A stretch of 64,000 nucleotides of DNA, taken from positions 36,775-100,774 of the forward strand of contig JAAZGO010000019.1 in NCBI GenBank assembly GCA_012511175.1, read 5' to 3'. The notes under the pieces are model-generated. The model saw nothing but the letters and a program-made list of their open reading frames with translations. It made no database searches and had not been told where the DNA came from. Each line of letters starts with the position of its first letter. The first letter of the stretch is position 1. The translations under genes were made by a program, and so were the position numbers. This document shows, piece after piece, positions 7,465-9,388 of the stretch. The stretch is from Fastidiosipila sp. (lineage in GTDB: Bacteria; Bacillota; Clostridia; Saccharofermentanales; DTU023).

Positions 7465-8658
7465 GTGATACGAAATGGCTATTTTGGCACCTTCGGCGGT
7501 CGGTTCATCCCGGAGCTGCTGATGAACGAAATCAGGGACTTGGAAGATGCCTACGAAAAATGCAGGAATGACACCGGTTTCCAATCCGAGTTGTCCGTCC
7601 TGCTCGAAAATTGCGCCGGCCGGCCATCGCGGCTCTATCTGGCCAAAAAGATTACAGAGGACCTGGGTGGGGCAAAAATTTACCTCAAACGCGAAGATCT
7701 GAACCACACGGGATCTCACAAAATCAATAATGTGCTGGGTCAGGCCCTGATCGCGGTCAGAATGGGAAAAAAGCGCCTGATCGCGGAGACAGGCGCCGGC
7801 CAGCACGGCGTGGCAACGGCGACTGCAGCAGCCCTGATGGGCCTTGACTGTGAAATTTTCATGGGCAGGGAAGATCTTGACCGGCAGCGCTTGAATGTCT
7901 ATCGGATGGAGCTTCTCGGCGCCCGGGTCCACGCGGTCGAAACCGGAACCCGTGTCCTCAAGGACGCCGTCAATGCGGCCCTTCACGCCTGGGCGGGTCG
8001 GACAGCGGACAGCTATTATCTTTTGGGATCGGTAGTCGGCCCCCACCCCTACCCGGCCATGGTGCGGGACTTTCAAAGTGTCATCGGCCGGGAAGCGCGA
8101 CAGCAAATACTCGAACTGGAAGGCCGTCTGCCCCAGGTCCTTGTCGCCTGTTGCGGCGGCGGCAGCAATGCCATGGGCCTCTTTCACCCCTTTATCCCTG
8201 ACAGGGGTGTCCGGCTGCTGGGCTGCGAAGCCGCCGGGCGGGGCATTGGTACCGGCCAGCACGCTGCCAGCCTGACTGCAGGGCGGCCGGGAATCTTTCA
8301 CGGCATGAAATCATATTTCTGCCAGGATGATCAGGGCCGGATCGCCCCGGTCTATTCCATTTCCGCCGGCCTGGACTATCCGGGAATCGGTCCTGAACAC
8401 GCCTGGCTCAAGGAAACGGGACGTGCCGATTACGTGGCTGTCACAGATGAAGAAGCCGTCAGGGCTTTTGAATACCTGTCACGCCTTGAAGGAATCATCC
8501 CGGCCATGGAAAGCGCCCACGCCATCGCGCAAGTCATGAAAATCGCTCCCGACATGGATAAGGAAGCCCTGATTATTGCCAATCTGTCCGGGCGGGGCGA
8601 CAAAGACGTCGAGGCCATGGCCTCATACAGGAGGAGGAAGATACATGAATCGAATTGA
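7465..8658 (+). CDS. trpB: Tryptophan synthase beta subunit
   Basis: A 397-residue PLP enzyme, the canonical TrpB1 length, which condenses indole with serine to give tryptophan. Conserved segments are present in order: FGGRFIPELL, the PLP-lysine motif SHKINNVLGQAL, the catalytic Glu in AETGAGQHGVAT, the phosphate-binding CCGGGSNAMG, and the pyridine-N serine motif NLSGRGDKD. The active site therefore looks intact. GTG 7465 is preferred as start because AGTGAGG lies eight bases upstream and it gives the usual N-terminus; in-frame ATGs at 7423 and 7444 lack ribosome sites. It is controlled by the Trp T-box upstream. Its end overlaps the start of trpA by 14 bases. No trpE, D, C or F gene is in this cluster. 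Confidence 0.96.
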   Translation: MIRNGYFGTFGGRFIPELLMNEIRDLEDAYEKCRNDTGFQSELSVLLENCAGRPSRLYLAKKITEDLGGAKIYLKREDLNHTGSHKINNVLGQALIAVRMGKKRLIAETGAGQHGVATATAAALMGLDCEIFMGREDLDRQRLNVYRMELLGARVHAVETGTRVLKDAVNAALHAWAGRTADSYYLLGSVVGPHPYPAMVRDFQSVIGREARQQILELEGRLPQVLVACCGGGSNAMGLFHPFIPDRGVRLLGCEAAGRGIGTGQHAASLTAGRPGIFHGMKSYFCQDDQGRIAPVYSISAGLDYPGIGPEHAWLKETGRADYVAVTDEEAVRAFEYLSRLEGIIPAMESAHAIAQVMKIAPDMDKEALIIANLSGRGDKDVEAMASYRRRKIHESN

Positions 8659-9388
8659 AAAAACGTTCATTGGGAACAAGGCCTTGATCGCCTTTCTGAT
8701 GGGAGGTGACCCCTCCCCGGCGTCAAGCGAATCGTTCGCCCTCTCCATGCTTGAGGCCGGCGCGGACATGATCATGGTGGGGATCCCCTTTTCCGATCCC
8801 GCTGCCGAAGGGCCGGCCGGACAGGCAGCCCACCTGCGTGCGATCGCCTCGGGCGCAAAAACCGGGGACCTGATCCGGCTGGCCGGAAGAATCCGGAGAA
8901 AAACAGATCGACCCATCCTTTTGCAAAGTTACCTGAACCCGCTCTTCTGCTACGGCTATCAGGCCTTCTTTTCCGATTGTGAAGAAGCAGGCCTTGATGG
9001 TCTGGTCATCCTGGATCTGCCCCATGAGGAAAGGGCTGAAGTTCTGCCCTTTGCAAAGCAGCACAAGATCGCCCTCATCTCCGTGCTGGCCCCGTCTTTA
9101 GGGCGGCGGGCCAGGGACATTGTCCGGGATGCGGAAGGCTTTGTCTATGTGAAGACACCGGTAAATCCTGGGGAGGCAGTTCATTTCCTTGAAGAGGCTG
9201 CCCGCCTGATCAGCCTCCCGGCCGTCACCGATTTACCCGGAAACCAGGAAAAGCAGGCGGCTTGCCTCGTACAGGCAGCTGACGGCATCATCTTCAGCGC
9301 CCTGGAACTGATCGGAACCTGCGGGGACCGGGCAGGCCACCCTCTTTCCAGAACTGTCAACAGGCTGAAAAGAGCAGGTGGCCTCTGA
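8645..9388 (+). CDS. trpA: TrpA-like protein lacking the catalytic glutamate
   Basis: A 247-residue TIM-barrel of the tryptophan synthase alpha family, which normally cleaves indole-3-glycerol phosphate and passes indole to TrpB. The fold segments KALIAFLMGGDPS, VGIPFSDPAAEGP, LVILDLPHEE and APSLGRRARDIV are recognisable. The general-base Glu (E49 in E. coli, ELGVPFSDP) is Met44 here (IMVGIPFSDP), and Asp60 is Glu55. Asp-to-Glu at that site is not rare in Clostridia, but loss of Glu49 is. The loop GVTG is replaced by VNPG, and the phosphate-binding VGFGIS is replaced by VTDLPG. Inference: the lyase is inactive, and the protein may act only as a TrpB activator. Start is ATG 8645 with AGGAGGAAG upstream, inside the trpB end. 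Confidence 0.85.
   Translation: MNRIEKTFIGNKALIAFLMGGDPSPASSESFALSMLEAGADMIMVGIPFSDPAAEGPAGQAAHLRAIASGAKTGDLIRLAGRIRRKTDRPILLQSYLNPLFCYGYQAFFSDCEEAGLDGLVILDLPHEERAEVLPFAKQHKIALISVLAPSLGRRARDIVRDAEGFVYVKTPVNPGEAVHFLEEAARLISLPAVTDLPGNQEKQAACLVQAADGIIFSALELIGTCGDRAGHPLSRTVNRLKRAGGL

Follow-up and report, generated by a model that had tools for sequence, protein, structure and literature searches.

The trpB-trpA locus

We analyzed a 64,000-nucleotide stretch of DNA (the window) from Fastidiosipila sp., a member of the family DTU023 in the order Saccharofermentanales (GenBank assembly GCA_012511175.1, contig JAAZGO010000019.1, positions 36,775 to 100,774). The window encodes an intact tryptophan synthase beta subunit (TrpB) and, overlapping it, an alpha subunit (TrpA) whose active site is degenerate. 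The pair is preceded by a T-box leader and followed by genes for a TrpX-like ABC transporter (Table 1). The 247-aa trpA frame runs from an ATG at 8645 to a stop codon that ends at 9388, exactly where a prediction made from the sequence alone (the original prediction) had placed it, and shares 14 nt with trpB, the stop codon of which lies at 8656-8658. TrpB carries the catalytic residues K100 (K87), E122 (E109), D318 (D305), E363 (E350), and S389 (S377) as well as the GGGSN motif, bearing out the earlier claim that its PLP lysine, catalytic Glu, and Ser motifs are intact.

Table 1. Features of the trp locus and adjoining genes, in window coordinates.
Feature	Position	Strand	Evidence
T-box leader before trpB	7059..7305	+	RF00230, 87.6 bits, E 1.2e-19; slightly below the Rfam gathering score of 93
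Specifier triplet TGG (Trp; UGG in RNA)	7146..7148	+	Specifier-loop column of the T-box alignment, assigned by eye
T-box UGGC	7273..7276	+	T-box alignment
Terminator-like hairpin of the T-box, then a T-rich run	7293..7327	+	Stem of 15 pairs; the folded stretch 7262-7336 has z -4.3
trpB, intact gene for the tryptophan synthase beta subunit; 397 aa with a start at GTG 7465	7423..8658	+	TIGR00263, 617.6 bits (cut-off 392.45)
trpA, degenerate tryptophan synthase alpha subunit	8645..9388	+	TIGR00262, 144.2 bits (cut-off 102.35)
Met44 where E. coli has catalytic Glu49	8774..8776	+	Alignment
PFSDP, residues 48-52, TrpB-facing alpha loop 2, kept; D51 = Asp56, P52 = Pro57	8786..8800	+	Alignment; contact role, PMC6608616
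Loop-6 deletion site, 26 to 18 residues, GVTG absent	9149..9175	+	Alignment
D196-L-P-G-N200 replacing the phosphate-binding motif GFGIS (211-215)	9230..9244	+	Alignment
Ser218-Ala219 replacing phosphate-binding Gly234-Ser235	9296..9301	+	Alignment
Terminator-like hairpin after trpA	9393..9425	+	-22.5 kcal/mol, z -3.8
TrpX-like ABC transporter substrate-binding protein	9560..10549	+	NF041285, 219.3 bits (below cut-off 390); PF04392, 197.2 bits
ABC transporter permease, TrpX-like cluster	10559..11521	+	PF02653, 95 bits
ABC transporter ATPase, TrpX-like cluster, start inferred	11514..12308	+	PF00005, 85.8 bits on ORF 11433-12308

Erosion of the alpha-subunit active site

By descent and fold the window protein belongs to the TrpA family: it scores above the curated profile cut-off and is predicted to form a TIM barrel. 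Its match to PF00290 (148.5 bits) covers residues 11-170 alone and ends at loop 6. For residue comparisons the protein was aligned to E. coli TrpA, with a reference sequence identical to PDB 1v7y over 268 residues. Position numbers and active-site roles follow E. coli TrpA.

The original prediction that catalytic Glu49 is replaced by Met44 is confirmed by this alignment, and in the sequence alignments no alternative Glu takes over that position. Loss of both phosphate-binding elements had likewise been anticipated in part, and the alignment adds the Gly234-Ser235 pair to the GFGIS motif. Loop 6 had been described as carrying VNPG where other TrpAs carry GVTG; the motif is indeed lost, but it was not substituted, since VNPG lies after an 8-residue deletion. 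Other changes from the E. coli protein are D60 to E55, I64 to G59, and L100 to Q94.

To set these changes in context we used two groups of homologues, P0002-P0120 and P0121-P0240 (the best 120 of 469 and the best 120 of 6128 matches, with the window protein left out). Glu at position 60 had been counted as damage, a claim that did not hold and that we rejected because this residue is common in relatives: 47/119 and 120/120 in the two groups, and 10/13, 27/27, and 73/82 in three batches of canonical TrpAs from the order. Measured against a competent TrpA, then, the window protein has the acidic residue at position 60 (Glu55) and lacks Glu49, the G-x-T-G of loop 6, and the phosphate-binding GFG and GS. 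Glu49 is conserved in 119/119 and 120/120 of the homologues; with all 239 of 239 of these best matches retaining it, replacement by Met through ordinary drift is unlikely. Of the 118 readable proteins among P0002-P0120, 115 contain the GxTG motif, and the three without it (P0033, P0047, and P0052) still have Glu49. In a separate search, a profile built from nine degenerate TrpAs returned canonical proteins only among the best 120 listed, and viral contigs gave no match to a DNA pattern back-translated from the M44 region. One homologue, P0121, is a 403-aa TrpA in which an internal stretch is repeated in tandem, either a gene duplication or an assembly artefact.

Papers are cited here by PubMed Central identifier. 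An E49D change alone already abolishes TrpA activity (PMC12930369). With Met in place of Glu49, the lid formed by loop 6 deleted, and the phosphate motifs gone, cleavage of indole-glycerol phosphate (IGP) by the window TrpA would therefore be abolished.

Tryptophan biosynthesis in the host genome

The host genome (G000) is a 1.7-Mb assembly of 42 contigs with a completeness of 97.7%. It contains one trpA. A second copy and the genes trpE, trpD, trpC, and trpF had been named with the original prediction as things to look for; no second trpA was found, and TrpC (IGP synthase, IGPS), TrpF (PRAI), TrpE, and TrpD had no match in the genome at E <= 0.001. Chorismate synthase (AroC) was also without a match at this threshold. 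Each of these five families was matched in 14/14 control genomes, TrpE exceeding its model cut-off in only 5/14. Given that these genes were not found, known enzymes would not supply TrpA with its substrate, IGP. The genome thus pairs an intact TrpB with the lack of an anthranilate-to-IGP pathway, the combination expected for indole salvage.

The same pattern extends across the family. Among 37 genomes, IGPS exceeds the cut-off in none (there is one sub-cut-off match, in G031) and TrpE has no match in any. Weak PRAI matches occur in three genomes (G010 and G017 over the cut-off, G025 under), and TrpD gives weak, sub-cut-off matches in many of them. These results bear on the idea that the pathway is missing owing to an assembly gap or a chimeric contig and that the organism makes tryptophan de novo. 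The fragmentation and the incompleteness of the genome speak for such a gap, but five pathway genes are absent together, chorismate synthase among them, the family as a whole gives 0/37 for IGPS over the cut-off and 0/37 for any TrpE match, and the T-box-trpB arrangement and degenerate trpA recur in a relative, G007 (there on two contigs). We regard this explanation as extremely improbable.

In addition, the genome has a gene for an enzyme of the tryptophanase family (G000:C35:41477-42859, equivalent to L125:978-2360), which scores 671 bits against NF009709 (cut-off 285) and falls below the equivalog cut-offs for both TnaA and tyrosine phenol-lyase. In alignments it retains the Asp and His of the tryptophanase type, at which tyrosine phenol-lyase differs. 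Because of this predicted enzyme, indole may also arise within the cell.

Control of the locus and neighboring genes

The specifier of the T-box points to tryptophan. The UGGC sequence should bind the acceptor end of the tRNA, with its C expected opposite a discriminator G. An internal check on the specifier column comes from the sole other T-box found in the genome (L081:1501-1741, G000:C2), which has AUG in the same column and UGGU as its T-box and precedes metN-like, methionine-type ABC transporter genes (named by eye). We predict from the leader sequence that trpB-trpA is induced by tryptophan starvation. Taken together, the UGG T-box and the downstream TrpX-like transporter genes fit a tryptophan-acquisition locus. 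Elsewhere in the window there is a tRNA-Ser gene (anticodon CGA; 5885-5975).

Degenerate TrpA across the order

Among 188 genomes of the order, 130 have a TrpA match, 124 have an IGPS match (123 over the cut-off), and 121 have both. Where both are present, TrpA retains Glu49 in 121/121 and the loop GxTG in 117/117 readable cases, the other four (G046, G127, G170, and G172) being cut by contig ends. Nine genomes have TrpA without IGPS. Five of them, the window genome, G007, G052, G112, and G150, encode a TrpA with degraded loop 6 beside TrpB. Two others, G068 and G184, were rejected as examples of canonical TrpA without the pathway, as their contigs end within ~160 bp upstream of trpB. The remaining two, G006 and G023, were rejected as further degenerate TrpAs; their genes lie beside nucleoside phosphorylase-like genes and have no close trpB. 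The G006 and G023 proteins (L047:7167-7901 and L208:2299-3027) score 63.1 and 62.5 bits against PF00290, and the G006 protein scores 54.8 bits against TIGR00262, under the cut-off. Both have equivalents of Glu49 and Asp60 and are without GVTG. Among the neighbors, named by eye, are a nucleoside-type ABC transporter and a pfkB-like kinase in G006; in G023 they include a BtpA-like gene and one for an iron-type alcohol dehydrogenase. This TrpA-like protein is possibly an uncharacterised aldolase.

The existence of such TrpA-like genes of another kind, and a barrel that is predicted to be intact, would be compatible with the window TrpA having taken on a new catalytic or ligand-binding role within the same fold. 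We consider this highly unlikely, since trpA still overlaps trpB under a tryptophan T-box, and since the active site has eroded differently in each lineage, with no convergence on a new motif.

A sixth degenerate TrpA (G044b) occurs alongside a canonical one in G044, a genome that has IGPS. It belongs to a second trpBA copy on L050 (G044:C68), which starts inside trpB; this genome also has TrpC, TrpD, and TrpF, and TrpE had no match in it. Among the six degenerate proteins Glu49 is lost only from that of the window (Met) and that of G052 (Gln). All six exceed the TIGR00262 cut-off, so standard annotation would call them functional TrpA, and genome-based predictions of which community members make and which scavenge tryptophan can go wrong if Glu49 and loop 6 are not inspected.

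A UGG T-box also precedes trpB in three other genomes with degenerate TrpA, G007, G052, and G112; none was found near the G150 trpB. Two of the genomes, G007 and G112, are of low completeness (74% and 64%, respectively). In the G007 degenerate trpA region (L046, G007:C108), feoB-like and small regulator-like genes lie on the opposite strand. In a TrpB tree the window protein and that of G007 are sisters (support 100/99), and the G112 and G150 proteins fall among canonical TrpBs. A single origin for all five degenerate partners, tested as one TrpB clade, was rejected (p-AU 0.0026), and thus at least two origins of degenerate TrpA are needed; a clade of the window genome, G007, and G052 was not rejected (p-AU 0.07). 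A further 13 genomes (L067-L079; G042 and 12 from the family of the window organism) have TrpB and no TrpA match, and these TrpBs fall in two other clades. One of these TrpA-less trpB genes (L076, G028) has a UGG T-box. Near others are a fluoride riboswitch (L071:3985-4057) and matches to the cspA thermoregulator (L067:2794-3131 and L068:1024-1351).

Contacts between the subunits

Contact between alpha Asp56 and beta Lys167 reaches the COMM domain of TrpB, and further contacts join alpha Asp60 to beta Arg175 and alpha Gly181 to beta Ser178 (PMC6608616; the numbering of two of the pairs was converted from that of M. tuberculosis within this analysis). The Asp56-Lys167 pair is retained in the window as alpha D51 and beta K180. 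At the other contacts, beta 175 is His188, beta 178 is Ala191, and alpha Gly181 falls inside the deleted loop 6. Beta 178 also varies in canonical partners (Thr, Ala, Val, or Ser), so of the two beta positions 175 alone is informative.

Lys167 is present in 120/120 readable canonical partners, 5/5 readable degenerate partners, and 10/13 TrpA-less TrpBs, and Arg175 in 120/120, 1/5, and 0/13, respectively, counts that come from phylogenetically non-independent sequences. Position 171 is Asn or Ser in TrpBs beside a degenerate TrpA (Asn171 in the window) and Asp in 13/13 TrpA-less TrpBs. In the 119 nearest metagenomic TrpBs listed, position 175 is most often R (102), followed by K (9), G (5), and S (3).

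On the alpha side, nine degenerate TrpAs were aligned, six from genomes and three metagenomic proteins chosen for a broken loop. There are 22 invariant columns, of which 13 fall in loops 2, 3, and 4. These 13 are P48, F49, S50, D51, E55, Y96, N98, G104, D124, P126, E128, E129, and E132.

Selection and the case for a partner role

Constraint on trpA differs between lineages. The dN/dS ratio, calculated from pairs with trimmed starts, is 0.07-0.08 in four canonical pairs (another canonical pair, G045/G053, is saturated and gives no point estimate) and 0.19 (0.12-0.28) in the degenerate pair G052/G044b. AlphaFold predicts a complete TIM barrel for the window TrpA. All 50 PDB matches listed by Foldseek and VIA-align are TrpA or the plant homologue BX1, and Chlamydia TrpA is not named among the matches listed.

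Our favored reading, to which we give a probability of about two-thirds, is that the window TrpA is a non-catalytic partner of TrpB in a starvation-induced locus that turns indole into tryptophan. The original prediction had proposed indole scavenging, or a purely allosteric TrpA, and the genome sequence supports this: the pathway genes were not found, trpA is single, and no alternative Glu aligns to the catalytic place.

Several observations pull the other way. The dN/dS ratio between the window TrpA and its nearest relative, that of G007, is 0.56 (0.34-0.82), and the G007 protein is truncated to 213 aa, so that constraint in the window lineage is present but loose, and this lineage may be decaying. 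Glu49 is retained, without loop 6, in 4/6 degenerate TrpAs (G007, G112, G150, and G044b), and thus the trait they share is loss of loop 6 and not of Glu49. Loop 6 itself also bears an allosteric contact to TrpB, so that activation could be weaker without it. Of the four nearest metagenomic TrpBs, three (P0242, P0244, and P0245) have Arg at beta 175 and the fourth (P0243) has Gly. The high confidence of the fold prediction (pLDDT 95.4) stems from an alignment of 63 rows and supports foldability, not function. Finally, same-family relatives with TrpB alone suggest that TrpA is dispensable there, though their TrpBs belong to other clades.

The main rival to the partner role builds on these points: TrpA would be a decaying remnant, its frame persisting as a recent loss or through translational coupling to trpB, and TrpB alone would salvage indole. 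Besides the dN/dS of 0.56, the shortened G007 protein, and the 13 genomes with TrpB and no TrpA match, this explanation draws on the G150 trpB (L114), which lies next to a degenerate trpA and is interrupted by a single in-frame stop codon, either genuine or introduced by the assembly. We nonetheless think it fairly unlikely. The 247-aa frame is open and its predicted barrel is intact, the upper bound of dN/dS (0.82) is below 1, and the ratio of 0.19 in the analogous G052/G044b pair is lower still. More specifically, of the 22 residues that never vary among the degenerate TrpAs, 13 sit in loops that face TrpB, and TrpBs beside a degenerate TrpA combine Lys167 with Asn or Ser at 171, in contrast to the Asp171 of all 13 TrpA-less TrpBs.

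If TrpA is a non-catalytic partner, as we favor, the locus could work as follows. As uncharged tRNA-Trp accumulates, the UGG T-box is predicted to permit read-through into trpB-trpA. TrpB would then condense serine with indole, either from outside or from the tryptophanase-like enzyme of the cell itself. TrpA would dock via loops 2, 3, and 4, where the contact of alpha Asp51 with beta Lys180 probably favors closure of the COMM domain. The arm by which TrpB activates TrpA (beta Arg175 with alpha Asp60, and beta Ser178 with alpha Gly181 of loop 6) appears to have been dismantled.

We suggest a broader scheme only tentatively. The trp operon of the order may have been stripped repeatedly to a tryptophan T-box, trpB, and a dead trpA, with TrpA becoming a specialized activator that lacks a lid. 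The loop-6 deletion would uncap the alpha barrel and let outside indole enter the alpha-beta tunnel, Asp56-Lys167 would still close TrpB, and the Arg175 and loop-6 contacts would have been shed on both sides. Together with the tryptophanase-like enzyme, such a system could act as an indole recapture device. Whether or not this scheme holds, the degenerate pairs offer natural tryptophan synthases from which evolution has removed alpha catalysis while keeping the alpha scaffold, and they make directly testable an old question, that of which contacts activate in the alpha-to-beta and which in the beta-to-alpha direction.

Comparison with known systems

The idea of a non-catalytic TrpA that aids TrpB has precedent in Chlamydia trachomatis, and TrpAB-only gut genomes had already been read as those of indole users. 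In genital C. trachomatis the impaired TrpA gives a four-fold gain in TrpB activity (review PMC9378776), and the catalytically impaired TrpA of the TrpRBA system regulates TrpB allosterically (Michalska et al. 2021, cited in PMC9378776). Our searches of the literature on non-catalytic TrpA, indole salvage, and trpB T-boxes returned, for impaired bacterial TrpA, Chlamydia work only among the matches listed, and the primary Chlamydia paper may treat other bacteria. Nor did those matches include a non-chlamydial bacterial group with repeated loss of TrpA loop 6 in genomes that lack the pathway, accompanied by loss of beta Arg175.

As in C. trachomatis, trpBA of the window is retained without the full upstream pathway, TrpA is impaired, and tryptophan would come from external indole. 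The systems differ in control, which is by TrpR/YtgR in Chlamydia and by a predicted UGG T-box here, and in setting, in that the group of the window organism has sister families that keep trp operons. In the window TrpA, loop 6 is deleted and Met stands at the Glu49 place.

Tryptophan synthase without other trp enzymes is also known from human gut genomes, where the TrpAB-only variant "A1" (14 genomes) was read as marking users of indole precursors; the cited part of that paper does not discuss the state of the TrpA active site (PMC9026213), which is described here for the window. TrpX-like transporter genes adjoin the window salvage pair much as TrpX-mediated tryptophan uptake is under T-box control in Streptococcus suis (PMC9382623). 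Unlike in S. suis, the T-box of the window stands before trpB and not trpX, and the TrpX-like match is below the equivalog cut-off. The TrpA-less TrpBs among relatives of the window organism resemble the stand-alone plTrpB and LBCA TrpB, which act largely without TrpA (PMC11917138), whereas the window TrpB retains Lys167, Asn171, and a TrpA partner.

The TSB-like pseudoenzyme of eudicots (PMC12727527) offers a further parallel, in which one half of the synthase is non-catalytic and allosteric activation of the other half is retained, as we propose for the window. The two would be mirror images: the dead beta paralogue of plants activates alpha and releases indole, and the dead alpha subunit of the window would serve beta and capture it.

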